Both the position numbers and the translations under genes were made by a program. Of a stretch of 64,000 bases of DNA, positions 1,117 through 46,069 are shown piece after piece; position 1 is the stretch's first letter, and each line of letters starts with the position of its first letter. The DNA is from Streptomyces sp. PCS3-D2 (GTDB lineage: Bacteria > Actinomycetota > Actinomycetes > Streptomycetales > Streptomycetaceae), in assembly GCF_000612545.2 (NCBI RefSeq), contig NZ_CP097800.1, forward strand, positions 6,626,001 through 6,690,000. The letters are read 5' to 3'. The notes under the pieces were generated by a model. The model was not told where the DNA came from and ran no database searches. It worked only from the letters and a program-made list of their open reading frames with translations.

Positions 1117-3645
1117 TCACGGCGGGCCGACCTCGTCCAGCAGGAAGTCCGCCGGGCCACCGGAGCCGGCGCGGTGGAGCACCCGCAGCACACCGGCCGA
1201 GCCGGTCAGGTAGTCGGTGGAGCAGCGCTGCAGGCCCTCACCGGGCACCCCCAGCAGCGGACGCCCGTCCGCGTCGCGCAGACCGAAGCGCGCGGCGGGC
1301 TCGAAGAGGAAGACCCGCCGGACGAAGTCGAGCTGCCGCAGCGCGGTGTCGCGGTACGCGGGGTCGCCGGTGAACTCCGCCGCGTCCAGCAGCGTGTCGG
1401 CGATCCCGCACATCCCGGTCGCGTACCCCGGCCGCGCCCAGCACCGCAGGTCCAGGCTCCGCAGGACGTCACGGGCCGCGGCCAGGTCCCCGTAGCGCAG
1501 CAGCACCTTCGCCAGGCCCGCCGAACCCGCCTCGACGGACGGTCCCGTGCCCCCGTCCCCGCCGCCCGCCGCGGTGCGGGCCATCTCCCAGGCGAGCGCC
1601 TCCCGACCCAGTTCCAGGTGGTGCTCCTCGCCCGAGATCTGGTGCATCCGCAGGAGGAACATGGCGACGCCCGCCTGCCCGGACCCGAGCCCCGCCAGCG
1701 GCCCCCGGGCGCAGGCCCCGGTCAGCCAGTAGGCCTGGTCCTCGTCACGCCGCGCGGTGTCGTGCAGCGCACGGGCGCAGCGCTGGGCCGCGGCGAGGTC
1801 GTGCGGGTCGCGGCCGCGCAGGAAGAAGTGCAGGTTCGTCATGCCCACTCCGGCGAGGCCGTGGTGGAACGTGTGGTCGCGCTTCGCCACCGCGCGCCGG
1901 TTGGCCCGGTCGAGCAGCTCCCGGGCCGGTGCCGCGAGCCCGAGGGCGTCGGCCGCCCAGGCGATGCCGGCCAGGCCGTTCATGAGGCCGTCCGGGTATC
2001 GGGCCGGGTCGATCTCCGCGAGCTCGGCACGCAGCCGGTCGCGCCATTCGGGCCGGACGGGCACGCCGGAGGCGTGGAGCGCCCACAGGACGCCGCTCGC
2101 GCCGGACCCGAGACCGAGCGGGTTCGTGACGTGGGCGAAGGGGTCCACGGGGAAGAAGGTGTCCCGGCGGGAGTCTGCGGCGGCCTGGATGAACGCGGCC
2201 ACCGCGGCTTCCGCCCCGCCCGGCTCCGGCCGTTCCCCGGCCGCCGGGCGCGGCGGCGCGGCCGGCCCGACGCGGCCGGGCAGCCCCGCCTCGTCCTCCA
2301 GCACGTCGAGCAGGCCGACCAGGCCGATCCGACCCCGGGCCAGGTCCACCAGCAAACGGTGCACCCGTTCCGGCCAGCCCAGGCCCTCCGTGACGAGGGT
2401 CCGGTACAGGTCCAGGACGTCCTCGCGCAGGTCGGACATGGCCGTGATCGGCAGGATCAGCCCGGCCATGACCCGGGCCAGCGCGTACCGGTCCCCGGCC
2501 TCGGTCGCGGGGCCACTGCCGGGGGTGCCGACGGGATCATGGCCGGGCCCGGTCCCGCCGCCGGGCAGCCGGCAGGTCTCCAGGCCGAGGACGCGCACCT
2601 CGTAGCTGTCCGGGTCGACGAGGACGTCCGAGGCGGTGAAGCCGCCGAGGACCACGCCGCGATCGTGCGCCGCCCGGACCGCGCGCGCAAGCCCGCGCAG
2701 GACGGTCAGGAAGATCCGCAGGTACGCTCGTGACTGCTCGGGGCCGGAGCCCGGCCGCGTGAGCGGGTTGCGTGCGAGCAGCAGCGGGCCGAGGCCGGTG
2801 CCTTCGACGAACTCCATCGCGATGTAGTGGTGTTCGCCGTGCTGGAACGTGGCGACGGGAGCAGGGAAGGAGCCCGCGCCGGCCAGCAGGTTCAGGAACA
2901 TCCACTCGCGGCCGAGGAGGTCGACGGCGTCGTCGCGGGCCTCCTTGAGCAGTACCTTCCGGTCGTCGTCCGCGGTGTCCTCGGCGGTGTGGACGCCGCC
3001 GTCGTGCGAGGACCGGATCGTGTCGGTCAGCCGGAAGCGTCCCCCGAGCAGGCCGTCCCCCGCGTCCTCGTCGGCCGGCTTCCAGTCGTCGAACGGCCAG
3101 GACGCCCGGTCGGGTGCGGGGGGCTGCCGGCGCCCGAGGACATCGACGGTGCGGGGCGCGTGGAAGGGGCCGTAGCGCAGGTACAGCGCCTTGCTGTCCC
3201 GGTAGCGCACGTCCGACGGGACGGACGGGCCCTCCACCCCGTCCAGGAGGCGGGCCAGGCCGGCCAAGCAGCTTCTGAACTCCTCCACGCCGTGCGGGTA
3301 GACGGTGGCGAGCGGGCCTCCGCCCCGCATCGCGAAGACGGTGGGGTCGAGGGCGATCTCGAAGTCGGTGCCGAGGGCCGTCAGATGCCCGATCACCGAT
3401 GCGGCGATCTCGCGCACCTGCCGCCGGCCCGCCGAGATGTGAATCTTCCAGCCCTGGTCGGGCGGGGCCGGGTCGTGCCGGTGGCTCCACCGGTTGCCGC
3501 GCCGGACGAAGCGCGCCCGGGTCGCCGCGTCGAATCCGGACAGGAAGTGGTCGGCGTCCGGCTCGTGGAAGACGTCGAGAGGGTCGAAGAACAGCGTGTC
3601 GCTCCAGGTGAAGAGGGAGCGGTCGACCCATCGTTCGTTGCGCAT
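1117..3645 (-). CDS. LanKC-like (class III lanthionine synthetase family) protein with degenerate active sites
   Basis: 842 residues with the full class III layout: lyase-like region ~1-190, kinase-like ~200-450, LanC-like cyclase ~480-842. Family members phosphorylate Ser/Thr of a precursor peptide, eliminate phosphate and cyclise. Key residues are altered here. In the lyase part QGWKIH keeps K67 and H69, but the Lys of the FKFA-type motif is E96 and the Lys of the SGKF-type motif is P111. In the kinase, K234 remains, but the catalytic-loop Asp is G335 (LGGFTASD, where the intact paralogue at 40941-43613 has RDFTPGN), the loop Asn is D340 and the metal-binding Asp is G354 (VLGLE versus LIDLE). 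The cyclase lacks all three zinc ligands (SVEA and ATG replace WCHG and CHG), the last being normal for class III. The ORF is uninterrupted, so this looks like a maintained pseudo-enzyme. It follows a 22-aa peptide gene. Confidence 0.85.
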   Translation of the reverse strand: MRNERWVDRSLFTWSDTLFFDPLDVFHEPDADHFLSGFDAATRARFVRRGNRWSHRHDPAPPDQGWKIHISAGRRQVREIAASVIGHLTALGTDFEIALDPTVFAMRGGGPLATVYPHGVEEFRSCLAGLARLLDGVEGPSVPSDVRYRDSKALYLRYGPFHAPRTVDVLGRRQPPAPDRASWPFDDWKPADEDAGDGLLGGRFRLTDTIRSSHDGGVHTAEDTADDDRKVLLKEARDDAVDLLGREWMFLNLLAGAGSFPAPVATFQHGEHHYIAMEFVEGTGLGPLLLARNPLTRPGSGPEQSRAYLRIFLTVLRGLARAVRAAHDRGVVLGGFTASDVLVDPDSYEVRVLGLETCRLPGGGTGPGHDPVGTPGSGPATEAGDRYALARVMAGLILPITAMSDLREDVLDLYRTLVTEGLGWPERVHRLLVDLARGRIGLVGLLDVLEDEAGLPGRVGPAAPPRPAAGERPEPGGAEAAVAAFIQAAADSRRDTFFPVDPFAHVTNPLGLGSGASGVLWALHASGVPVRPEWRDRLRAELAEIDPARYPDGLMNGLAGIAWAADALGLAAPARELLDRANRRAVAKRDHTFHHGLAGVGMTNLHFFLRGRDPHDLAAAQRCARALHDTARRDEDQAYWLTGACARGPLAGLGSGQAGVAMFLLRMHQISGEEHHLELGREALAWEMARTAAGGGDGGTGPSVEAGSAGLAKVLLRYGDLAAARDVLRSLDLRCWARPGYATGMCGIADTLLDAAEFTGDPAYRDTALRQLDFVRRVFLFEPAARFGLRDADGRPLLGVPGEGLQRCSTDYLTGSAGVLRVLHRAGSGGPADFLLDEVGPP

Positions 3646-3681
3646 CTCTGCTGTCAGCCTCTGTGATCGTCCGAGGGGCCG

Positions 3682-3701
3682 CCACCGGCAGCAGCCGGTG
3701 G
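3682..3701 (-). terminator. Small perfect hairpin before the LanKC-like gene
   Basis: Inverted repeat CCACCGGC / GCCGGTGG, 8 bp, 4-base loop AGCA, in the short leader between the peptide gene and the LanKC-like start. Together with the larger hairpin next to it, it could slow or terminate transcription. Role inferred. Confidence 0.45.
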
Positions 3702-3709
3702 GAACGACA

Positions 3710-3751
3710 GGATCCGGGCCGGGGTACGGGGGAGCACCCCCGCCCGGATCC
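3710..3751 (-). terminator. Strong hairpin (attenuator-like) between the 22-aa peptide gene and the LanKC-like gene
   Basis: Perfect 10-bp arms GGATCCGGGC / GCCCGGATCC (3710-3719 and 3742-3751) enclose a further 5-bp stem (GGGGT/ACCCC). It starts 7 bases after the stop codon of the peptide gene. Hairpins in this position in lantibiotic operons let the precursor transcript exceed that of the enzyme; that reading is inferred here. Confidence 0.6.
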
Positions 3752-3757
3752 GTCGGG

Positions 3758-3826
3758 TCAGTTCAGGTATCCCGGGCCGCGCTGCGTCCTGCGGGCCTCC
3801 GTGTTCTGGGGCTTGAGTACGCTCAC
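3758..3826 (-). CDS. 22-residue cysteine-free peptide, candidate partner or substrate of the LanKC-like protein
   Basis: A GTG start at 3826 is preceded by AGGAGG with an 8-base spacer, one of the best ribosome sites in the window. The peptide begins MSVLKPQNTE, continues ARRTQR and ends GPGYLN. It has one Ser and two Thr, no Cys, and a basic middle. Class III precursors usually have a longer leader containing an L-x-L-Q-type motif (VLKPQ here is a distant echo) and a core with Cys or several Ser. Without Cys, no lanthionine can form. A double hairpin follows, then the LanKC-like gene 112 bp away. It may be a substrate modified another way, a bound signal or cofactor peptide, or a leader peptide that tunes expression. 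Coding status rests on the ribosome site and position only. Confidence 0.5.
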   Translation of the reverse strand: MSVLKPQNTEARRTQRGPGYLN

Positions 3827-4121
3827 CCGGTTCACCTCCTAGAAAGGTCGAATGCGCGGGACGCGCGGCTGGAGTAGGACTGGCGCCGGCCGATCGGCAC
3901 CCCCGACTCAACGCCATCCGCGCCACCCGCGCATGGGCGCCGGACCCGCATATTCCCCGCCCGCACCACCCAGCGACCGGCCGCTCCGGCATCGCGTGAA
4001 TGGTGGTGGTCCATGCCCTTCCGTCATGACCCATGGCGTGGTAAACGAGGCGCCTTCGGTTTCCCGCCGGGCGTCCGGTGGGACCACTGACTAGAATTCC
4101 TGCTGAGGAAGGGGGCGCCTG
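3827..4121. promoter_or_regulatory. Divergent promoter region between the peptide/LanKC-like genes and the Ser/Thr kinase gene
   Basis: 295 bp without a convincing gene. On the + strand a -10-like TAGAAT lies at 4092-4097 and a purine-rich ribosome site (GAGGAAGGGGG, 4105-4115) precedes the kinase ATG. No clear -35 element was recognised. A minus-strand open frame here is Arg-rich and was not accepted. Confidence 0.35.
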
Positions 4122-5117
4122 ATGGGCGCGGACCTGAGCCAGTACACCGGCCGGCCCTCCGGGCTGGTCGGGCAGCAGATCGCCGGATACAAGATCGAGC
4201 GCATGATCGGCCGGGGTGGCATGGCCGTCGTCTACTGCGCCAGGGACCTGCGGCTGGACCGCACGGTCGCGATCAAGCTGATCGCCCCGGAGCGGGCGCG
4301 GGACGACACCTTCCGGCGCCGCTTCACCCACGAGTCGAGGGTGGCCGCGTCGATCGAGCACCCGCACATCGTGCCGATCTTCGAGGCCGGCGAGACCGAC
4401 GGCGTCCTCTACATCGCCATGCGCTTCGTGCCCGGCCTGGACCTGCGGGGGCTGCTCGACCGGGAGGGTCCGCTGCCCGTCCCGACCGCCCTGCGGATCG
4501 CCGCCCAGGTGGCGTCCGCCCTGGACGCCGCCCACGACCACGAACTGGTGCACCGGGACGTCAAACCCGGCAACATCCTGGTCGCGGCGGGGCCCGACCG
4601 GGACCATCCGGAGCACATCTACCTCACCGACTTCGGCCTGACGAAGAAGTCCCTGTCGCTGAGCGGGTTCACCACGGCGGGGGAGTTCGTCGGCACGCTC
4701 GACTACATGGCGCCCGAGCAGATCGCCGGCCGGCCGGTGGACGGCAGGTGCGACCTCTACAGCCTGGCCTGCGTCGTCTACGAGACCCTGGCCGGCGGGC
4801 CGCCCTTCGTCCGCGAGGAGGACGCGGCCCTGCTGTGGGCGCACCAGTACGACGCCCCGCCGCCCCTGACCGAGCGGCGGCCCGACATCGCACCCGCCGC
4901 AGACGAGGTCTTCGCCAGGGCCCTGGCGAAGATTCCCGAGGACCGGTACGGCTCCTGCCTGGAGTTCGTGGCGGCCCTGCGGGCCGCCACCGAGCACGGC
5001 CCCCGCACCGAGCAGCGGCCCCGGCGCGGCCAGGAGCGGACGGCGCCGCCTCCGGACCCCCCGGAGTGGGCGCTGCCCGTCTTCCGCGTCCCGCCCGGAC
5101 CGCATGGACCGCAGTAG
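4122..5117 (+). CDS. Soluble Hanks-type serine/threonine protein kinase
   Basis: 331 residues. The kinase fold has the glycine loop IGRGGMAVVY (29-38), the ATP-binding Lys in VAIKLI (K52), HRDVKPGN (144-151), DFG (170-172) and APEQ in the P+1 region, so it should be active. No membrane segment or PASTA domain follows; the C-terminal ~45 residues are Pro/Arg-rich, so the protein is cytosolic. It is transcribed divergently from the peptide/LanKC-like pair and converges on a PP2C-type phosphatase gene, so kinase and phosphatase flank one another. Targets are unknown. Possible links to the anti-sigma-like HATPase domain of the neighbour or to the pseudo-LanKC are inference from position. Confidence 0.93.
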   Translation: MGADLSQYTGRPSGLVGQQIAGYKIERMIGRGGMAVVYCARDLRLDRTVAIKLIAPERARDDTFRRRFTHESRVAASIEHPHIVPIFEAGETDGVLYIAMRFVPGLDLRGLLDREGPLPVPTALRIAAQVASALDAAHDHELVHRDVKPGNILVAAGPDRDHPEHIYLTDFGLTKKSLSLSGFTTAGEFVGTLDYMAPEQIAGRPVDGRCDLYSLACVVYETLAGGPPFVREEDAALLWAHQYDAPPPLTERRPDIAPAADEVFARALAKIPEDRYGSCLEFVAALRAATEHGPRTEQRPRRGQERTAPPPDPPEWALPVFRVPPGPHGPQ

Positions 5118-5190: not shown

Positions 5191-7632
5191 TCAGAAACCG
5201 AGGAGCGACTGCTCGGCCCAGATCGTCTTGCCGACGGCCGCGTGCCGGGTGCCCCAGCGCTGGGCGAGCTGCGCCACCAGCAGCAGACCGCGCCCGCCCT
5301 CGTCGAAGGTGCGGGCCCGCCGCATGTGCGGGGCGGTGCTGCTCGCGTCGGAGACCTCGCAGATCAGCGTGTCCTTCTCGTGGATCAGCCGTAGCTGGAT
5401 GGGCGGCTCGCCGTACCGGATGGCATTGGTGACCAGCTCGCTGACCAGGAGCTCGGTGACGAACGAGGCATCCTCCAGCCCCCACGCGGTCAGCTGGTCG
5501 GTGGTCCGCCGACGGGCCCGGGAGACGTCGGAGGGATCGGAGGCCAGGTCCCACACCACGACCTTGTCGGCGTGCAGGGCCCGGGTCCGTGCGACGAGCA
5601 GGGCCACGTCGTCGTCGGGGCGGTGTGTCAGCAGGGCCGTCAGAACCCGGTCGCAGACCGTGTCCAGGGTGGAGGCGGGCTGGGCGAGCGCGGCGAACAT
5701 GGTGTCCAGTGCCTCGTCGAGGTCCCGCTCGCGGGGCTGGAGCAGCCCGTCGGTGTAGAGGGTCAGCACGCTGCCTTCGGGAAGGTCGACGTCCAGTGTC
5801 TCGAAGGGCAGGCCGCCCAGGCCCAGCGGTGGACCGGCCGGGACGTCGAGGAGGTACACGGAACCCTCCGGGGAGACCACCGCCGGCGGCGGGTGCCCGG
5901 CCCGGGCCAGCGTGCAGTGCCGGGTCACCGGGTCGTAGACCACGTACAGGCAGGTCGTGCCGATGCCCCCGGCGCTCTCGTCGACGGCCTCCCGGCCGCC
6001 CTCGTCCGCGGACAGATGGATGATCAGGTCGTCGAGGTGGGTGAGCAACTCGTCCGGCGGCAGATCCACGTCGGCCAGCGTGCGCACCGCGGTGCGCAAC
6101 CGGCCCATCGTCGCGGAGGCACGGATGCCGTGGCCGACGACATCGCCCACGACGAGGGCCACCCGGGCGCCGGACAGCGGGATCACGTCGAACCAGTCGC
6201 CGCCCACGCCCGCCTCGGTACCGGCCGGCAGATAGCGGGAGGCCGTCTCCAGCGCCGGGTGGTCGGGCAGCGCCTGGGGGAGCAGGCTGCGCTGCAGCGT
6301 CATGGTGCTGGTGTGCTCCCGGGCGGACCGGTGGGCGGTGTGGATGCTCGCCGCCGCCCGGCCCGCGAGATCCTCGGCCAGTGACAGGTCCTGTGGCAGG
6401 AAAGGACCCCGGCCGCGGCGGCGGCCGAACACGGCGACGCCGAGGCCGACGCCGCCGGCGTGCATCGGCACCACCATCACCGAGTGGGCCCCGTGCGCGC
6501 CGAGCCAGGCCGCCGCGGGGTCCTGCGCCATCCACTGGGCGACCGCCGGGGCCGTCGTCGCGTAGACGGCCCCGCGGCCCGAGGCCAGGCATTGGGCGGG
6601 CGGCGACAGCGGCGGGTGGACAGCCGTCTCGCCGACCGCCACGCGCCCCTCGGAACTCCCCTCGACGGCCGAGCGCACGGCCGTACGGCACACGGTGACC
6701 GGACCCTGCTGCGGGCCGGAGGTCTGGCCGTCCCCCCGCGGCAGGGGATCGAGCAGGTCGACGACCGCGAAGTCGGCGAGCCGGGGCACGGCCACGTCCG
6801 CGAGCTCCTGCGCGGTGCGGGTGCTGTCCCCGCTGGTCCCGATGCGCGCGCCGGCGGCGTCCGGCAGGAACATCTGCTGCGTCTCGACCTCGGCCCCGGT
6901 CCGGTCGTGCGCGGCGAGGCACACGGCGCGCACCCGGCCGCCCGGATCCCGCAGCGGTGCCACCGAGGTCGCCCAGCCGTGCTCCGCGCTGACGCCCGTG
7001 GTGCGCACGAACGCCTCCATGTGCTGCGGCTCCCCGGTCTCCAGAGCCAGACGCATCCTGCGCTCGGTCTCCTCGCTCACCGGGTCCGGGGCGATCTCCG
7101 GCAGGCGCAGCCCGGCCATCTCGGACTCCGTGAGGGACAGCGTGCGCTCCATGCCCGCGTTCGCCCGCACCAGTCGCAGGTCGGCGTCGAAGACCGCCAG
7201 AAAGCAGGGGGACTGGGAGAACGACCACGCGTGCAGCGGATCACCCCACGAGGAGCCGTCACCGTCCCGCCGGCCCTCCACCGCGGAGACCACGTACCAC
7301 TGGGTGGCGCCGCCGGTGGAGGTCCGGCGGTGCGCGAGCAGCCCCTGTTCCAGGCGGCCGCCGTCCCGGTGCCGCAGGGCCACCGTGCCACTCCACCGCT
7401 CCTGCTCGGCCGGGATCCGGCGGGCCGCGTCGCCGACGGGATCGGCCAGCAGGAACGCGGCGGACCGCCCCACCACCTCGGCGGACGCGTAACCGAGCAG
7501 CCGGGCGGCACCTTCGCCCCACTCGGTGACGACGCCCTGCTCGTCGACGGCGGCCGCCGCCGTGTACGCGGGCCCCCGGGCGGCACCGGTCCGCCGCGGG
7601 CGCTCACCGGGGGAGGTGGGAAGTTGCTCCAT
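5191..7632 (-). CDS. PAS-PAS-GAF-SpoIIE-type PP2C phosphatase with C-terminal HATPase (anti-sigma-like) domain
   Basis: 813 residues. Two PAS-like regions (~25-125 and ~130-255) and a GAF-like region (~275-440) precede a PP2C/SpoIIE phosphatase domain (~455-670) with GGDWFDVIPL, VGDVVGHG and the late acidic motif HRPDDDVALL. An HATPase_c domain of the RsbW type (~685-810) follows, with the N-box ELVTNAIRYG and the glycine segment DEGGRGLLLV. Such Streptomyces proteins sense a signal, dephosphorylate anti-anti-sigma (STAS) proteins and may also bind or phosphorylate partners. No membrane helix is visible. It is convergent with the Ser/Thr kinase gene. The sensed ligand is not evident. The STAS protein at 56999-57370 is a possible partner within the window, but that is speculation. 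Confidence 0.92.
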   Translation of the reverse strand: MEQLPTSPGERPRRTGAARGPAYTAAAAVDEQGVVTEWGEGAARLLGYASAEVVGRSAAFLLADPVGDAARRIPAEQERWSGTVALRHRDGGRLEQGLLAHRRTSTGGATQWYVVSAVEGRRDGDGSSWGDPLHAWSFSQSPCFLAVFDADLRLVRANAGMERTLSLTESEMAGLRLPEIAPDPVSEETERRMRLALETGEPQHMEAFVRTTGVSAEHGWATSVAPLRDPGGRVRAVCLAAHDRTGAEVETQQMFLPDAAGARIGTSGDSTRTAQELADVAVPRLADFAVVDLLDPLPRGDGQTSGPQQGPVTVCRTAVRSAVEGSSEGRVAVGETAVHPPLSPPAQCLASGRGAVYATTAPAVAQWMAQDPAAAWLGAHGAHSVMVVPMHAGGVGLGVAVFGRRRGRGPFLPQDLSLAEDLAGRAAASIHTAHRSAREHTSTMTLQRSLLPQALPDHPALETASRYLPAGTEAGVGGDWFDVIPLSGARVALVVGDVVGHGIRASATMGRLRTAVRTLADVDLPPDELLTHLDDLIIHLSADEGGREAVDESAGGIGTTCLYVVYDPVTRHCTLARAGHPPPAVVSPEGSVYLLDVPAGPPLGLGGLPFETLDVDLPEGSVLTLYTDGLLQPRERDLDEALDTMFAALAQPASTLDTVCDRVLTALLTHRPDDDVALLVARTRALHADKVVVWDLASDPSDVSRARRRTTDQLTAWGLEDASFVTELLVSELVTNAIRYGEPPIQLRLIHEKDTLICEVSDASSTAPHMRRARTFDEGGRGLLLVAQLAQRWGTRHAAVGKTIWAEQSLLGF

Positions 7633-9665: not shown

Positions 9666-10763
9666 TCAGCGCAGCACGGCCGCCAGGAGATCGGCGCCCA
9701 GCGACGTCAGGTCGGGCAGGCTGAGGGTGTAGCGGACGTAGCGACCGCGCCGCCGGGCCGTGAGCAGGCCGGCCCGGCGCAGGACGGCGAGGTGCCGGGA
9801 CACCTCCGGCGGCGAGAGCTCCCAGGCGTGGGCCAGTTCGCGGGTGGTGTGCGGGCCGCGGGCGAGGGTGCGCAGCAGCCGCAGCCGTACCGGATGCGAG
9901 AGCGCCTCCAGCCGGAGGGAGACCGTCTCCAGCGACACCGGCTCCGGGGGTTCCGGCTCCGCCACCGGGTACTGCACCACCGGCTGCCAGCCGGGCGCGT
10001 GCACCACCGCCAGGTGCGGCCCGCCGAAGACGCTGGGTATGAAGGTGACCGCGCGGCCGTGGGCGGAGGTCGCCTTGTCGGGCAGCTTGTCCAGGACGAT
10101 GCAGTCGCCGTCCGGAGCCAGCGAGACCGCGCCGGAGACCGCCGCGAGCGCCGCTTCCACGCCCTGTCGCCTGAGCAGGTCGTTCTTCACCCGCAGGTCG
10201 GTGGCGAGCCGTACCGCGACGTCCGCCCAGGCGGCGTCGAAGAAGACCTCGGCGCACTGTTCGAGGGTGTCGCGCAGGCTCGCCCGTACGGTGGCCGGGT
10301 CCGCGAGCAGCCGTGCCGCGAAGGCCTCCTGCCGTACGCCGCGGGCCTGAGCCAGGTCCAGGGCGCGCTCCCGCGCCGTCCGGTCGTTCAGCGGTGAAGG
10401 CGCCCCGAAGCGGACCCGGTTGTTGCCGCACGTGGTGACGAGGGCCGCTGTCACGTACCTCTCGTCGTCGATCAGGTCCACGTCGTCCAGCTCCTGGGCG
10501 AGGGTCGGCCGGGGGCGGGCAGGGAGCAGGAAGTCGGCTTGTGAGGAACGCCAGAGGAAGTCCGCCTCGCGCAGCCGCTCGGAAAGCTCCGCCGGCATCC
10601 CGGCCCGTACCTCCCCGGCCAGGCCGGCGAGCTGCGGATGGTGCCCCGGCTCGGTCAGCACGTGCAGCATCGCGGTCAGCTCGGCCAGCGGGGAGGCGGC
10701 GAACCGCAGCCGTTCGGACGGCAGGCCGCCGATATCGATCCTCAAGGTCACCGGCCCAAGCAT
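9666..10763 (-). CDS. ArsR/SmtB-like winged-helix regulator with N-terminal DUF5937-type domain
   Basis: About 365 residues. The C-terminal ~90 residues are an ArsR-type winged helix (LSHPVRLRLLRTLARGPHTT, RELAHAWELSPPEVSRHLAVLRRAGLL). The long N-terminal part (LRIDIGGLPSERLRFAASPL) resembles the DUF5937 domain of actinobacterial ArsR-like regulators. Start choice is uncertain: ATG 10763 or GTG 10751; the longer frame reaches back across the operator and is rejected. It is divergent from an MFS gene with a perfect inverted repeat between them, so it most likely represses both genes. Effector unknown; no metal-binding Cys pair is seen. Confidence 0.85.
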   Translation of the reverse strand: MLGPVTLRIDIGGLPSERLRFAASPLAELTAMLHVLTEPGHHPQLAGLAGEVRAGMPAELSERLREADFLWRSSQADFLLPARPRPTLAQELDDVDLIDDERYVTAALVTTCGNNRVRFGAPSPLNDRTARERALDLAQARGVRQEAFAARLLADPATVRASLRDTLEQCAEVFFDAAWADVAVRLATDLRVKNDLLRRQGVEAALAAVSGAVSLAPDGDCIVLDKLPDKATSAHGRAVTFIPSVFGGPHLAVVHAPGWQPVVQYPVAEPEPPEPVSLETVSLRLEALSHPVRLRLLRTLARGPHTTRELAHAWELSPPEVSRHLAVLRRAGLLTARRRGRYVRYTLSLPDLTSLGADLLAAVLR

Positions 10764-39861: not shown

Positions 39862-40940
39862 AGCAATCCCTCGTACGGACCGGCCGGGCGCACGGTCACT
39901 CCGTGCGCTGGACGATCACGCTACCGAGAACGCGGACCGGTCGGAGCGCGTCCCCCGCGGAGCGGTGCGGGAGGAATCCGCTCGGCGGAAGCCGGGCGGG
40001 ACGGCGGCCGGTGAGGTGAGAGGGCCGCTCATTCAGGCCGCCAAGTCCGCCCCGTGCTCCCCACGGACCACGGTTGTGGCGTTCCGGTACCTGCACCGGG
40101 CCGGCGAGCATGCCCGATGACGGACCACGGCAGCCGCAAATTTCAGAACTGCCCCAATGGAAAGCCAAGGTGCTGTGCACCTCTGCCGTATCGCCCGTCT
40201 CGTCGGCAGAGCACCGTTCGATCACCGTTCGATCGATCATGGAGGGGTTGTTTTCGCGGTTTTCGGCCGCATCGTGAGGGCTGAGCGAAATTCAAGGGGC
40301 CGGGAGATTGCGTTTGAGTGCAGCCCAGGACCGTGATCGGGATTCACGGCGGCGCGATCTGTCGCGTTCCGTAGTCGGCCCATAGCGTGGCGAAATCGGG
40401 CCCTTTACTCGGCGCTCCTCGGCGGCGAAGCTTTGGGCCGGGGCATCGCCCGGTGTCGCCCTCGCGACGGATACCGCGACACGGCCGGAGCCTGGCGTTC
40501 TCTTGGGATGGGGCAGGTCGAAACAGAGGGGGCGGGTGGAAGGCCCACATCGGATCCGGAGTTCGGCAGGAAGTGCAGGGCAGGGCGTTCGCGTTCGTTG
40601 CCGACGGTGTGGATTTCTGCGGTGTGTTCAGGAGTTGGCTGCATGGGTGGGCGGTCCGTATTCATGCTCGGCGGAATCCTCTATGAGGAATGGAGAAGGT
40701 CTCGATCCCGGCCGGCCTCTGTTGTTGTTCACGGATGACTCCGGCCGCAAGGTAATCCAGAGGAATGGGGATGGGCGCCTTTGTGCGCCCGCGTGCACTC
40801 CGTTCTCCGCGCCGTTCGAGAGCATCCGGCACCGTCAACGACACAGTGCGCTCGCTGCGCCGGGTGACGCGGGCACGCACGCTCTATATGTTCCGAAGGC
40901 ATAGTCCAATCTGCAGTCCTCGCGGTGGAGAGGGATGGGC
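39862..40940. other. 1.08-kb gene-free region before the lanthipeptide cluster
   Basis: No convincing gene, although it has many short open frames. Base composition is lower in GC than the surroundings (runs such as TTGTTTTCGCGGTTTTCGG near 40247). It contains a tandem pair of ACCGTTCGATC (40213-40223 and 40224-40234) and a 6-bp dyad CCGTGA/TCACGG (40331-40349). An Arg-rich frame from 40766 overlaps the lanL start but is not accepted. It likely carries the lanL promoter and perhaps an untranslated leader or small RNA. Confidence 0.5.
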
Positions 40941-43613
40941 ATGACGAGCCAGGCAAGCGAAGTCGAACTCCGGGACCTGCTGGGCAGGTCACTGGAGGCC
41001 ACGGGGCAGGCCGCGCAGTGGACCGTGGACACGGACACGACGTGGTGCCGCCTCACACCCGCCTCCGCGGCGCAACGCAAGCAGGGCTGGAAGCTGCACG
41101 TGTCGGCCACGTCCGCCTCCGCTCCCGCGGTGCTGGCGCGGTCCCTGGACGTGCTCCTGCTGCGGGACTCCATGTTCAAGTTCGCCCGGTCCCTGGAACA
41201 GGTGAGCGCGCTCAACTCCCGGGCCACACCGAGGGGCAACTCGGGCAAGTTCATCACCGTCTACCCCCGCTCCGACGCCGACGCGGCCGCGATCGCGCTG
41301 GAACTGCACCAGGCCACGGCGGGCCTCGCCGGCCCGCGGATCCTGTCGGACCAGCCCTACGCCGCGAACAGCCTGGTGCACTACCGCTACGGGGCGTTCG
41401 TCGCCCGTCAACGGCTCTCCGATTCGGGCCTGTTGGTGTGGTACATGGAGGACCCGGACGGCAACCCCGTGGAAGACGTCCGTACCGGCCGCTATTCCCC
41501 GCCGTCCTGGGCGGTGAGCCCGTTCCCGGCCTCGGTGCCTGCCGCGCCGACCGAGGAGCGGGCCACGACGGCCCCGGTACTGCTGGGCGGCCGCTTCTCG
41601 GTACGGGAGGCGATCCGCCACACGAACAAGGGCGGTGTCTACCGGGGGACGGACGTCACCTCGAACGCGCCGGTGGTCATCAAGGAGGCGCGGCCGCACG
41701 TGGAAGCCGACGCCTCCGGATCCGACGTACGCGACTGGCTGCGCGTGGAGGCCCGGGTACTGGAGTTCCTCGACGGCACGGGCCTGGCCCCGCGGCTCCT
41801 TGCGGTGTTCGAGCACGGCGGACACCTCTTCCTGGCCGAGGAGGAGATCCCGGGCGTCCCGCTGCGCAACTGGGTCGCCGAGCGCTTCCGCGACATCGGG
41901 GGCGAGCGCTACCGCGCCGAGGCCCTGGCCCAGGCGGGCCGCCTGGTGGATCTCCTCGCCGAGGCCCACGCACGGGGCTGCGTCCTGCGGGACTTCACGC
42001 CCGGCAACATCATGGTCCGGCCCGACGGTGAACTGCGCCTCATCGACCTGGAGCTCGCCGTCCTCAAGGACGACGTCCCGCTCCCGACCACGGTGGGGAC
42101 CCCCGGCTTCAGCGCCCCCGAGCGGCTGGCCGGCGCGCCGGTCTCGCCCACGGCCGACTACTACAGCCTGGGTGCCGCCGTGTGCTTCGTCCTCACCGGA
42201 AAGGTCCCCAGCCTGCTGGCCGAGGAGCCCGCGGCCAGGACCGCGCACGAGCGGCTCGCCGGGTGGCTGGCCGCCTGTGACGACGTGCTGCGGCTGCCCG
42301 AGGGCCTGACCGAGATGATCCTCGGGCTGATGAGTGACGACCCCGCCGAGCGCTGGGACCCCGAACGGGCCGGCGCGGCCCTCCGCCGGGCGGTACGCGG
42401 ACCTGCGGCCCGGGCCGCCGGGGGACCGGCCCATCCGACTCCGCGGTCCGACGCGACGCAGGGCGCGGTGGCGGGGATGGTGGACCACCTCATCGGTTCG
42501 ATGACCCCGCAGGACGAACGCCGCCTGTGGCCGGTGTCCACCATGGCGGGGGAGACCGACCCCTGCACGGTGCAGCAGGGCGCCGCAGGTGTGCTCGCGG
42601 TCCTGACCCGCTACTTCGAGTTGACCGGCGACGGGCGCCTGCCGGAGGTGCTCTCCACGGCGGGACACTGGATGGCGGCGCGGACGGACACCCGCTCCAC
42701 GCGGTCCGGCCTGCACTTCGGCGGCCGGGGGACCGCATGGGCGCTGTACGAAGCCGGCCGGGTCCTCGACGACCGCGTGCTCGTCGAGCACGCGACGGCT
42801 CTGGCCCTGGCCCCCCAGGAACCGGCACCCCATCACGACATCACCCACGGCCGGGCGGGCAGCGGACTGGCCGCCGCCCACCTCTGGTACCGCACGGGGG
42901 ACCAGCGTTTCGCCGAACTCGTCGTCGATGCGGCCGACGCGCTGGCCGCCGCCGCCACGTCCGAGCCGTCCGGTGTCAGCTGGCCCGCGCCCCCCGAAGT
43001 GGTCACCGGGAGCGTCGGCGAACGCTATCTCGGCTTCGCCCACGGGACGGCCGGCATCGGATGCTTCCTGCTCGCCGCTTCAGCCGTCACGGGCCGTCAG
43101 GAAGACCGGGACCTGGCCCGGGCGGCGGGGGACGCACTGGTGGCCGCCTCCCTGACGGTCGGTGGGGCGGCACAGTGGCCCTCCAAGGCCGGCGACGTGC
43201 CGACCGCCCCGTACTGGTGCCACGGTTCCGCGGGGATCGGCTCCTTCCTGCTCCGGCTGTGGCAGGCCACCGGCGACGACCGGTACGGCGATCTCGCCCT
43301 GGCGGCGACGAAGGCCGTGGTGGAGCGGGCCTCGCGCGCCCCCCTCGCCCAATGCCATGGCCTGGCGGGCAACGGCGACTTCCTCCTCGACATGGCCGCC
43401 GCCACGGGGGATCCCGCCCACCACGCGTCGGCCGAGGCCCTGGCCCGCCTCATCACCGCCGAACAGATCCACCGCAACGGCCACGTCGTCTTCCCCAACG
43501 AGTACGGGGACGTCTCGACGGGCTGGAGCGACGGGTCCGCAGGAATCCTGGCGTTCCTCCTGCGGACCCGCCACACAGACTCCCGGCTCTGGATGATCCA
43601 GCAGCCGGGCTGA
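40941..43613 (+). CDS. lanL: Class IV lanthipeptide synthetase LanL
   Basis: 890 residues from ATG 40941 (GGAGAGGG six bases upstream). It phosphorylates Ser/Thr of the precursor encoded just downstream, eliminates phosphate and forms (methyl)lanthionine rings. Lyase domain ~1-200 retains QGWKLH (K51, H53), FKFA (K80) and SGKF (K103). Kinase ~215-480 has GGVYRG, K248, RDFTPGN (D351, N356) and LIDLE (D369). The LanC-like cyclase ~510-890 has the zinc ligands C760 in WCHG and C805-H806 in CHG, which separate class IV from class III. All active-site residues are present, in contrast to the LanKC-like protein at 1117-3645. Order in the cluster: lanL, precursor, ABC ATPase, ABC permease. Confidence 0.93.
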   Translation: MTSQASEVELRDLLGRSLEATGQAAQWTVDTDTTWCRLTPASAAQRKQGWKLHVSATSASAPAVLARSLDVLLLRDSMFKFARSLEQVSALNSRATPRGNSGKFITVYPRSDADAAAIALELHQATAGLAGPRILSDQPYAANSLVHYRYGAFVARQRLSDSGLLVWYMEDPDGNPVEDVRTGRYSPPSWAVSPFPASVPAAPTEERATTAPVLLGGRFSVREAIRHTNKGGVYRGTDVTSNAPVVIKEARPHVEADASGSDVRDWLRVEARVLEFLDGTGLAPRLLAVFEHGGHLFLAEEEIPGVPLRNWVAERFRDIGGERYRAEALAQAGRLVDLLAEAHARGCVLRDFTPGNIMVRPDGELRLIDLELAVLKDDVPLPTTVGTPGFSAPERLAGAPVSPTADYYSLGAAVCFVLTGKVPSLLAEEPAARTAHERLAGWLAACDDVLRLPEGLTEMILGLMSDDPAERWDPERAGAALRRAVRGPAARAAGGPAHPTPRSDATQGAVAGMVDHLIGSMTPQDERRLWPVSTMAGETDPCTVQQGAAGVLAVLTRYFELTGDGRLPEVLSTAGHWMAARTDTRSTRSGLHFGGRGTAWALYEAGRVLDDRVLVEHATALALAPQEPAPHHDITHGRAGSGLAAAHLWYRTGDQRFAELVVDAADALAAAATSEPSGVSWPAPPEVVTGSVGERYLGFAHGTAGIGCFLLAASAVTGRQEDRDLARAAGDALVAASLTVGGAAQWPSKAGDVPTAPYWCHGSAGIGSFLLRLWQATGDDRYGDLALAATKAVVERASRAPLAQCHGLAGNGDFLLDMAAATGDPAHHASAEALARLITAEQIHRNGHVVFPNEYGDVSTGWSDGSAGILAFLLRTRHTDSRLWMIQQPG

Positions 43614-43653
43614 CAGGAAACCCTGTCGACACCACCGAGAGAAGGAGATAGTC

Positions 43654-43809
43654 ATGGAGAACCGCGACCTCGAACTGCTGGCTCACCTGCACGCCCTTCC
43701 GGAGACCGACCCGATCGGCGCCGACGGAGTTGCGTTCGCCGACACGTGTGCGTGCGTCGGCCTGCTCACGCTCCTCAACACCGTCTGCGTCGGCATCAGC
43801 TGCGCCTGA
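43654..43809 (+). CDS. lanA: Class IV lanthipeptide precursor, venezuelin-like
   Basis: 51 residues from ATG 43654 with GAAGGAGATA upstream, 40 bp after lanL. The leader MENRDLELLAHLHALPETDP has the amphipathic LxxLxxLPE-type helix recognised by class IV synthetases. The core reads TCACVGLLTLLN then TVCVGISCA, holding Thr 31, Thr 39, Thr 43, Ser 49 and Cys 32, 34, 45, 50. The pattern matches, from memory, the VenA/SgbA/streptocollin group. Up to four thioether rings are possible. No dedicated protease gene is near, so leader removal would rely on a host peptidase. The core differs from related precursors at a few positions; an exact comparison needs alignment. Confidence 0.9.
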   Translation: MENRDLELLAHLHALPETDPIGADGVAFADTCACVGLLTLLNTVCVGISCA

Positions 43810-44123
43810 CCCAGGCCGTAGCAGCCCGCGCGGATCCGATACCGCCCGGCGGCCTCGTCAACCGCTCCGCTGTTGACGAGGCAATGAACGCCGGTCGCCC
43901 GTAGGCCAGCCACCCCCAGTGCACCCGCGTCGCCAGCCGATCAGGGCAGCACGAGGGATCCCGGCCGACCTCCGGCCGGTGGCCGCCCCCGCGGCAGCCA
44001 CCGGCCGGAGCGTCCGCCCCCGCCTTCACGGGGCACGAAGCATCGGCCCCCGAGCACCACACCGCCCCTTCGACCCAGCGCGCGCCCAAGTCCGTGGACG
44101 ACACCCAGCAGACGAGGACCTGA
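43810..44123. other. Intergenic region between precursor and exporter genes
   Basis: 314 bp without a gene. It contains the terminator-like hairpin at 43852-43882; a purine-rich GAGG ribosome site precedes the ATPase gene. Otherwise GC-rich with no recognised motif. Confidence 0.4.
43852..43882 (+). terminator. Hairpin after the lanthipeptide precursor gene
   Basis: 11-bp perfect arms GCCTCGTCAAC / GTTGACGAGGC with a 9-base loop, 42 bases after the precursor stop codon. No U-run follows, as is common in Streptomyces. It likely terminates or attenuates transcription so that precursor mRNA outnumbers exporter mRNA. Confidence 0.7.
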
Positions 44124-45196
<1,073 letters not shown>

Positions 45197-45200
<4 letters not shown>

Positions 45201-46069
45201 CCGCCCCCGCCGTCACCGCGCCGGGAAACCCCGACGGCCACGCCGACCCGTATCCGGCATCCCCGGCCCGCCTGCGCCGGGAACTGCGCGCGGTCCACGC
45301 CCTGGTCCACCGCGACCTGCTGCGCCTGTCCTTGCAGCGCACCCACACCGCGCTGATGCTGATCCAGCCGGTGCTCTACCTCTTCATTCTCGGAGGCGGT
45401 CTGGCCGCCCTGATTCCCACCGCCGCGCTCGGCGTGGGCTACCAGGTGTACCTCTTCCCCGGCATGCTGATGATGACCGTCCAGAGCCCCGCCATCATGG
45501 TCGGCATCCGCCTCATCACCGACCGGCAGAGCGGATACCTGCGAGAACTCCTGATGGCCCCGGTCAGCCGCGCCACCCTGCTCCTGGGCAACTGCGCGGG
45601 CGGCACCGTGGTCGCCACCGTCCAGGGCGCCGTCCTCCTCGCCCTGGCCGGCACGGTCGGCCTGCCCTACGACCCGCTGCTGCTGGCCCTGCTCCTCGCC
45701 GGCATGATCCTGGCCTCCTTCACCATCACCGCCCTGGCGCTCGCCCTGGCCGTCAGCCTCGGTCGCGCCGAGCTCTTCCACATGCTCCTCGGCCTGGTGA
45801 TGATGCCGCTGCTCTTCCTCTCCGGAGGCTTCTTCCCCCTCGACAACCTGCCCGGCTGGGCACGTGGGCTGGCCTCCCTGAACCCCCTCGCCTACGGCGT
45901 GGACCTGCTGCGCCGCTCCATCAGCCTGCGCGTGCCCGACCAGACGACCGCGGCCGGCATCGAATGGTTCGGCCACCAACCCCCGCTCCTCCTGGAAGCC
46001 GCAGCCCTCCTCGTCGCGGGCGTCCTCGCCCTCCTCTACGCCACCCGGCGCTTCAGCCGCCCGGAATGA
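45197..46069 (+). CDS. ABC-2 type permease (lanthipeptide exporter)
   Basis: 290 residues. About six membrane helices, with the ABC-2 signature region around [19 protein letters not shown] and [17 protein letters not shown], where the Asn-Pro-Tyr-type motif is typical. The N-terminal amphipathic part ([19 protein letters not shown]) precedes helix 1. Translationally coupled to the ATPase gene. Last gene of the lanthipeptide set; DevR-like boxes for the next gene start 80 bp later. Confidence 0.92.

Follow-up and report, generated by a model that had tools for sequence, protein, structure and literature searches.

Class III LanKC family and a short upstream frame

The gene described here encodes a protein resembling the class III lanthipeptide synthetases (LanKC) and lies, together with a short frame that precedes it, in a stretch of 64,000 nucleotides from Streptomyces sp. 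PCS3-D2 (contig NZ_CP097800.1, positions 6,626,001 to 6,690,000), hereafter called the window. The open reading frame (ORF) at 1117-3645, on the reverse strand, runs over 842 codons with zero stops, as had been reported in a first-pass annotation made from the sequence alone. An N-terminal extension is followed, on the same strand, by a RamC_N-type lyase-like domain (residues 61-200, 3046-3465), a kinase-like domain (residues 201-470, 2236-3045) and a LanC-like cyclase domain (residues 500-842, 1120-2148); the limits of the first two were taken from an alignment to ThurKC, a class III LanKC.

Both layout and family similarity assign the protein to class III LanKC. The NCBIfam model NF038151 spans residues 12-824 with 427.6 bits, a score that does not reach the equivalog cut-off of 575; the Pfam models RamC_N and LANC_like both match, and the best structural matches of the predicted model are class III LanKCs. 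The lyase-kinase-cyclase layout proposed earlier is recovered by these matches, with the reservation that Pkinase is unlisted for this protein at E<=0.1, whereas the same Pfam model matches the second synthetase of the window, LanL, at 1.5e-18. The class IV model NF038150 yields 277.7 bits against a cut-off of 650, the zinc-ligand CHG is absent from the aligned place, and the class II LanM model covers residues 570-690 only (48.2 bits, cut-off 304). Two matches in the window genome span the class III model, this protein and the class IV LanL, and the remaining 29 matches listed are partial and lie in the kinase region.

Upstream of the gene, at 3758-3826 of the reverse strand, stands a frame of 22 codons, MSVLKPQNTEARRTQRGPGYLN, preceded by AGGAGG. 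The frame has 25 codons if it starts at a GTG three codons earlier (3835).

Relatives and distribution

When 296 genomes of the genus were searched, 12 contained a match at E<=1e-50: 8, including the window, at an identity of at least 62%, and 4 at 32-37%. In a scan of a collection of 84,980 species, 14 orthologous loci (53-82% identity) came up along with 6 distant ones, 20 in total. After removal of duplicates (L003, L005, L009 and L014, on the same contigs as L028, L029 and L030), of the window LanL (L002) and of the distant L010-L013 and L041-L046 (23-37% identity, not orthologues), the comparison set consisted of the window and 18 orthologous loci: L027 (S. amritsarensis), L028 (S. virginiae) and 16 intact relatives (L029-L040, L004, L006, L007 and L008).

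In the tree, the window protein, L027 and L028 form one clade, supported at 100/100 and nested within the family. Of 393 genus genomes, two contain the DNA of the clade peptide: those of the window and of S. virginiae.

Residues lost and kept

The alignment to ThurKC confirmed, at the places first noted, the loss of four residues. G335 aligns with the catalytic Asp364 and G354 with the DFG Asp382 of the kinase domain; E96 aligns with the lyase base Lys94 and P111 with Lys117. Several further losses had gone unnoticed: the kinase Asn369 is replaced by D340, the equivalents of lyase Lys108 and Arg191 are deleted, and the protein has neither the loop preceding helix alpha-C nor the residues that bind the leader, the Phe, Tyr and Trp that contact the leader being S212, H219 and G270 in the kinase-like domain of the window protein. 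Lyase Lys67, His69, Asp145 and Arg157 (Lys65, His67, Asp152 and Arg163 of ThurKC) are kept, as are Lys234 and Glu247 of the kinase-like domain.

The same pattern holds throughout the clade. In ThurKC numbering, the lyase residues K94, K108, K117 and R191, the kinase residues D364, N369 and D382, and the leader contacts Y148, F236, Y243 and W302 are present in all 16 intact relatives and in none of the three clade members. All three also lack the insertion that precedes helix alpha-C and that makes contact with the activation segment in ThurKC, and have a shortened counterpart of ThurKC cyclase loop 714-722, by which the core peptide is guided (PMC10604976, in excerpt); about 4 of its 9 positions are gone and others are changed. 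All three members keep H67 and R163 as well as the beta-3 Lys and the alpha-C Glu, and two of them keep K65 and D152.

Restricting the alignment to columns without variation among the 16 intact relatives, and to those that the three clade members either all keep or all change, leaves 329, and 51 of these are changed in all three. Measured against a common reference of 13 sequences, the clade departs at 52 of 338 columns and the three intact relatives L034-L036, taken as a comparator clade, at 3 of 373, so that the losses are not a matter of chance. A chance ORF or a sequencing artefact was rejected, as identical losses occur in three separate genomes.

According to excerpts of PMC10604976, the K94A variant of ThurKC left the peptide unmodified, the K108A variant installed no dehydro residues, and K65 and R163 are essential; the equivalents of the latter two are both kept in the window protein. 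By analogy with the two variants, the clade protein would be a pseudo-LanKC devoid of modifying activity. The alternative of a retained catalytic reaction on some other substrate, such as a cyclase-only or another transferase reaction, draws on the kept beta-3 Lys, alpha-C Glu and lyase His and Arg, on the constraint of the cyclase domain (given below), and on a cyclase Tyr-Tyr pair, present in 16 of 16 intact relatives, that is His-His in all three clade members (residues 594-595, window 1861-1866); the window LanL carries His at the second place of this site. The catalytic Asp, the Asn and the DFG Asp are, however, all lost, Lys94 has become Glu, the loop that guides the core is shortened, and the behaviour of both ThurKC variants speaks against it as well. 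We consider such changed chemistry improbable.

A structural model of the window protein, based on an alignment of 16 sequences, had a mean predicted local distance difference test (pLDDT) score of 65.2, with the kinase and cyclase regions better and the lyase region poor. The model of the intact L029 protein reached 70.4, its lyase region being poor as well. Model confidence did not separate the dead protein from the intact one; the loss of the lyase fold is neither shown nor excluded, since this region is poor in both models, and the predicted fold is a family prediction, because the alignment included intact relatives.

Loss of the precursor core and of the transporter gene

Class III precursors were seen at 15 of the 16 intact loci, for example MSVLKLQNMEARTTQSAAATVSLTSSSSDCCKSPHQPHDPN, with a Ser/Thr-rich Cys-Cys core and a leader that mostly begins MSVLKLQ-; at the remaining locus, L036, the precursor is hidden by masked bases. 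In all three clade members an in-frame deletion of 57 bp (19 codons) removes the core, so that the Ser/Thr and Cys residues characteristic of a class III precursor are missing, and the leader motif LKLQ is changed to LKPQ or LKPH. For ThurKC, a leader motif LELQL is named as critical (PMC10604976, in excerpt). The 22-codon frame is a remnant of this precursor.

The Cys-free frame that had been put forward as a peptide partner does exist, as a precursor without its core and not as a separate peptide system. Measured by the refuting outcomes listed in the first-pass annotation, both the residues and a peptide with Cys are retained by the relatives, and the short frame without Cys was seen in no locus outside the three-species clade. 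As the orthologues carry cores, a new cysteine-free peptide system was rejected; the suggestion of a system distinct from the lanthipeptides is likewise not supported, the peptide being a core-deleted class III precursor with an altered leader motif, and the leader-binding residues and the transporter being gone.

An ABC transporter gene follows directly 3' of LanKC in 16 of 16 intact loci and in none of the three clade loci. That of L029 matches Pfam ABC_tran and ABC_membrane, and export of the product is the usual role of such a transporter. Its site in the window corresponds to 1111-1116 (no strand assigned), and no fragment was found in the DNA of the three clade loci by tblastn at E<=1e-3. 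A protein cluster (c7) was discarded, as tblastn identified it as an antisense shadow of the transporter. Comparison with the relatives places the losses of residues, core and transporter on the stem of the clade, as one change on the tree.

Two variants of precursor organisation were observed among the intact loci. Loci L007, L034, L035 and L038 have two tandem precursor frames upstream of LanKC, in which the leader resembles MSVLKLQ- and the core contains Cys-Cys. In L040 (S. tardus), which has an intact LanKC, leader and core of the precursor (about 9780-9890) lie in different frames when compared with L039; this frame slip is perhaps a second, independent precursor degeneration in the family.

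Purifying selection after the losses

Constraint was measured on the divergence within the clade, all of which postdates the shared losses. The mean divergence at first and second codon positions, divided by that at third positions, was 0.503, 0.571 and 0.666 for the three clade pairs, and 0.29-0.53 in seven intact pairs. Codon-blind neutral simulations, in which the window gene served as ancestor, branch lengths were set by hand and divergence was near, not equal to, that observed, gave means of 1.16-1.38 and a minimum of 0.777. Only 1 of 600 simulated trios remained stop-free, and in the real trio none of the three genes contains a stop. The gap runs inside the three clade genes are all multiples of three; intergenic gaps measure 31, 32 and 1.

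A codon model was fitted to 8 of the 19 sequences, on a topology fixed by the author, and gave a ratio of non-synonymous to synonymous rates (omega) of 0.155 for the clade crown, 0.337 for its stem and 0.115 for the background. A three-taxon version of the estimator returned omega values of 0.41-0.82 on 24 neutral simulations, so that the proper null is about 0.4-0.8 and not 1; the likelihood test of omega = 1 (twice the log-likelihood difference, 2dlnL, 341) was not used alone as evidence, and the simulations were taken as the null. By domain (N-terminus, lyase, kinase, cyclase), omega was 0.053, 0.129, 0.187 and 0.147 in the trio, and 0.099, 0.092, 0.094 and 0.110 in the intact L029, L031 and L032. 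Nei-Gojobori values (0.39-0.56 in the trio, 0.22-0.37 in eight intact pairs) were kept as context, because the GC content at third codon positions is 94-95%.

Pure drift was rejected, since both the codon-position ratios and omega fall outside the neutral simulations. The clade protein is under relaxed but real purifying selection after the losses. The earlier proposal, that selection has preserved a frame which is intact in spite of several broken active sites, is supported in this form, the crown being constrained, less tightly than the intact relatives. What would be expected of a pseudoenzyme kept by selection, residues lost and constraint persisting at the protein level, is found here, on a predicted fold and with an inactivity that we infer.

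The main competing explanation is slow decay, in which the product was lost in an ancestor and the gene is a relic, its residual constraint reflecting the cost of misfolding, a partial function until recently, or the short time since the loss. Decay is favoured by the relaxed omega of the stem and of the kinase domain, by the further residues lost in the S. virginiae protein alone (Lys65 to Gln, Asp152 to Ala), by the small number of carriers, known in only three species across the genus and 84,980-species scans, and by the absence of the transporter. Against a retained function stand the same further losses and few carriers, and also a weakening of selection: omega exceeds the background on both stem and crown (2dlnL 5.86), the kinase domain of the trio is about twice as loose as in the intact relatives, and two flanking genes of the same genomes, a kinase gene (0.046) and a SpoIIE-type gene (0.060), are tighter. 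The separation of the clade is not a sharp one, its lowest ratio (0.503) lying within the range of the intact pairs, the loosest of which has 0.525, and the substituted positions show no unusual fixation, with 23 of 37 identical in the trio compared with 590 of 832 over all columns. Decay is opposed by the position of all three pairs outside the neutral simulations since their split, by the stop-free frames and in-frame gap runs, and by the strong conservation of the 5' leader described below. We regard it as unlikely, while giving it more weight than any other competing explanation.

The conserved leader and a candidate hairpin

The peptide frame (78 nt) shows 8 differences in 234 pairwise positions (3.4%), fewer than all 774 windows of LanKC (mean 14.2%). 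The 160-bp block at 3761-3920, comprising the 5' leader and the peptide frame, shows 22 differences in 480, below all 751 LanKC windows, and the same feature taken at 3754-3913 (no strand assigned) shows 20 in 480. These comparisons were made with windows of LanKC of the same size. In the next 120 bp upstream of the block the difference rises to 20-43% per row of 40 bp. All four substitutions in the peptide frame change the amino acid, so that the conservation looks to be at the DNA or RNA level, four being too few to decide.

This conservation is one point in favour of a peptide partnership, in which the 22 residues would form a peptide that the pseudo-synthetase binds, as ligand, carrier or sensor. 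Another is that the leaders of class III precursors bind to LanKC and cause a rearrangement of its domains (PMC10604976, in excerpt). Three features argue against it: the amino-acid-changing nature of the four substitutions, with the caution just given, the replacement of LKLQ by LKPQ or LKPH, and the loss in all three members of the Y148, F236, Y243 and W302 contacts. With the leader pocket of the enzyme lost, a peptide-reading pair is unlikely, and we would give this explanation little credence.

A hairpin with compensatory changes lies between the peptide frame and LanKC (3711-3750, reverse strand) and was tested in 11 of the 19 sequences. In these, 90.2% of the cells were paired, compared with at most 52% when the hairpin was slid, and 12 cells were changed on both sides, compared with 3.7 in shuffles. 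The number of pairs with two-sided change (4) was matched by 56 of 500 shuffles and that of further pair types (8) by 414 of 500, so neither stands out. In lantibiotic operons, hairpins of this kind tune the ratio of peptide to enzyme.

Neighbouring genes and the second synthetase

The 3' part of a convergent LAL/LuxR-type regulator gene occupies 22-1110 of the forward strand; the full ORF, of 1007 residues in L015, matches AAA_16 and GerE. The regulator is present in all three clade loci and downstream in 10 of the 16 intact loci, and its omega is 0.147 in the trio genomes and 0.125 for L029, L030 and L032. On the other side lie a Ser/Thr protein kinase gene (4122-5117, forward), a syntenic flank common to the intact L029, L030, L033 and L017, and a gene for a SpoIIE/PAS/HATPase protein (5191-7632, reverse), found at the edge of L029, L030 and L033. 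Since these two flanking genes match L029, L030 and L033, the clade and intact loci occupy the same site. In 4 of the 19 loci (L029, L030, L033 and L017), a WD40-repeat protein of about 780 residues and small Gly-rich proteins, which look secreted by eye, are encoded between the kinase gene and the precursor. Elsewhere among the 19 loci the WD40 protein had no more than a weak match, in L036, and neither it nor the Gly-rich proteins were found in the three-species clade.

LanL, against which the LanKC-like protein was first compared, is class IV (NF038150, 1190.9 bits, cut-off 650). Its frame opens at 40935, the start of 40941 given earlier being the second Met, and its region (40935-46069) continues with an ABC ATPase gene (44124-45200) and an ABC-2 permease gene (45197-46069). 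No LanL precursor was identified among the ORFs listed at 40000-40940. Related large ORFs (999-1177 residues) stand beside class III loci in L034 (2763-5789), L035 (2518-6051) and L036 (2958-5957); the domain search covered that of L036, which has DUF4135 and LANC_like, the layout of LanM (class II).

Interpretation and comparison with known systems

Taken together, we favour, with moderate confidence, a pseudo-synthetase derived from an ordinary class III LanKC and kept for a task other than catalysis, probably that of a regulator or scaffold. On the stem of the three-species clade, the core, the transporter gene and the leader motif were lost, as were the leader pocket and the kinase and lyase centres of the enzyme, and the protein was afterwards held by purifying selection. 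A folded LanKC scaffold may still be made from the old operon leader, probably under its LAL-type regulator, and would exert its effect through contact with a partner protein and without any peptide modification, in which respect it would resemble the LanM-like effector CA_C0082. The 22-residue frame would then be mainly a retained translated leader or a regulatory element of the operon. The first-pass idea of a binding or regulatory role stands in this general sense; its more specific part, that the protein reads, carries or protects a peptide, is opposed by the evidence. More tentatively, and with considerable doubt, the whole locus may have been converted to a non-enzymatic regulatory module, made up of the LAL regulator, the conserved leader with its core-less 22-codon frame and the pseudo-synthetase as binding partner, the leader (as RNA, translated switch or peptide) controlling the pseudo-synthetase.

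The locus appears to catch a large trifunctional enzyme of ribosomally synthesised and post-translationally modified peptides after the end of its life as an enzyme, with intact sister loci, a deleted core and lost leader contacts all readable. It offers a testable case of biosynthetic enzymes becoming regulators and natural dead variants for models of the LanKC family. For genome mining it is a caution against taking a full-length LanKC next to a short frame as a sure sign of a product.

In a literature search limited to open papers of PubMed Central (PMC), no report of a LanKC pseudoenzyme was found. Class III LanKCs such as ThurKC, CurKC, PneKC and CuvL share with the window protein the three-domain layout and the order of peptide frame and LanKC. 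Unlike theirs, the window locus is without the lyase base, the kinase Asp, Asn and Asp, the leader contacts, the precursor core and the downstream transporter, and its protein scores below the NCBIfam cut-off. The intact orthologous loci encode LanKCs 53-70% identical to the window protein.

The closest precedent found is CA_C0082 of Clostridium acetobutylicum. In the excerpts of PMC10301443 available, this protein and its homologues are lanthipeptide-synthetase-like, without conserved catalytic residues or other lanthipeptide genes; a degenerate remnant had been considered, and an effector role is reported. Judged from the same excerpts, both systems have a synthetase-like protein without catalytic residues beside a regulatory system. 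CA_C0082 is class II (LanM-like), lies downstream of agr genes and occurs in several clostridia, whereas the window protein, around which no search for agr genes was made, is class III and occurs in a clade of three Streptomyces; the window locus, unlike that of CA_C0082 as described there, keeps a visible ancestral precursor and operon leader and has intact sister loci.

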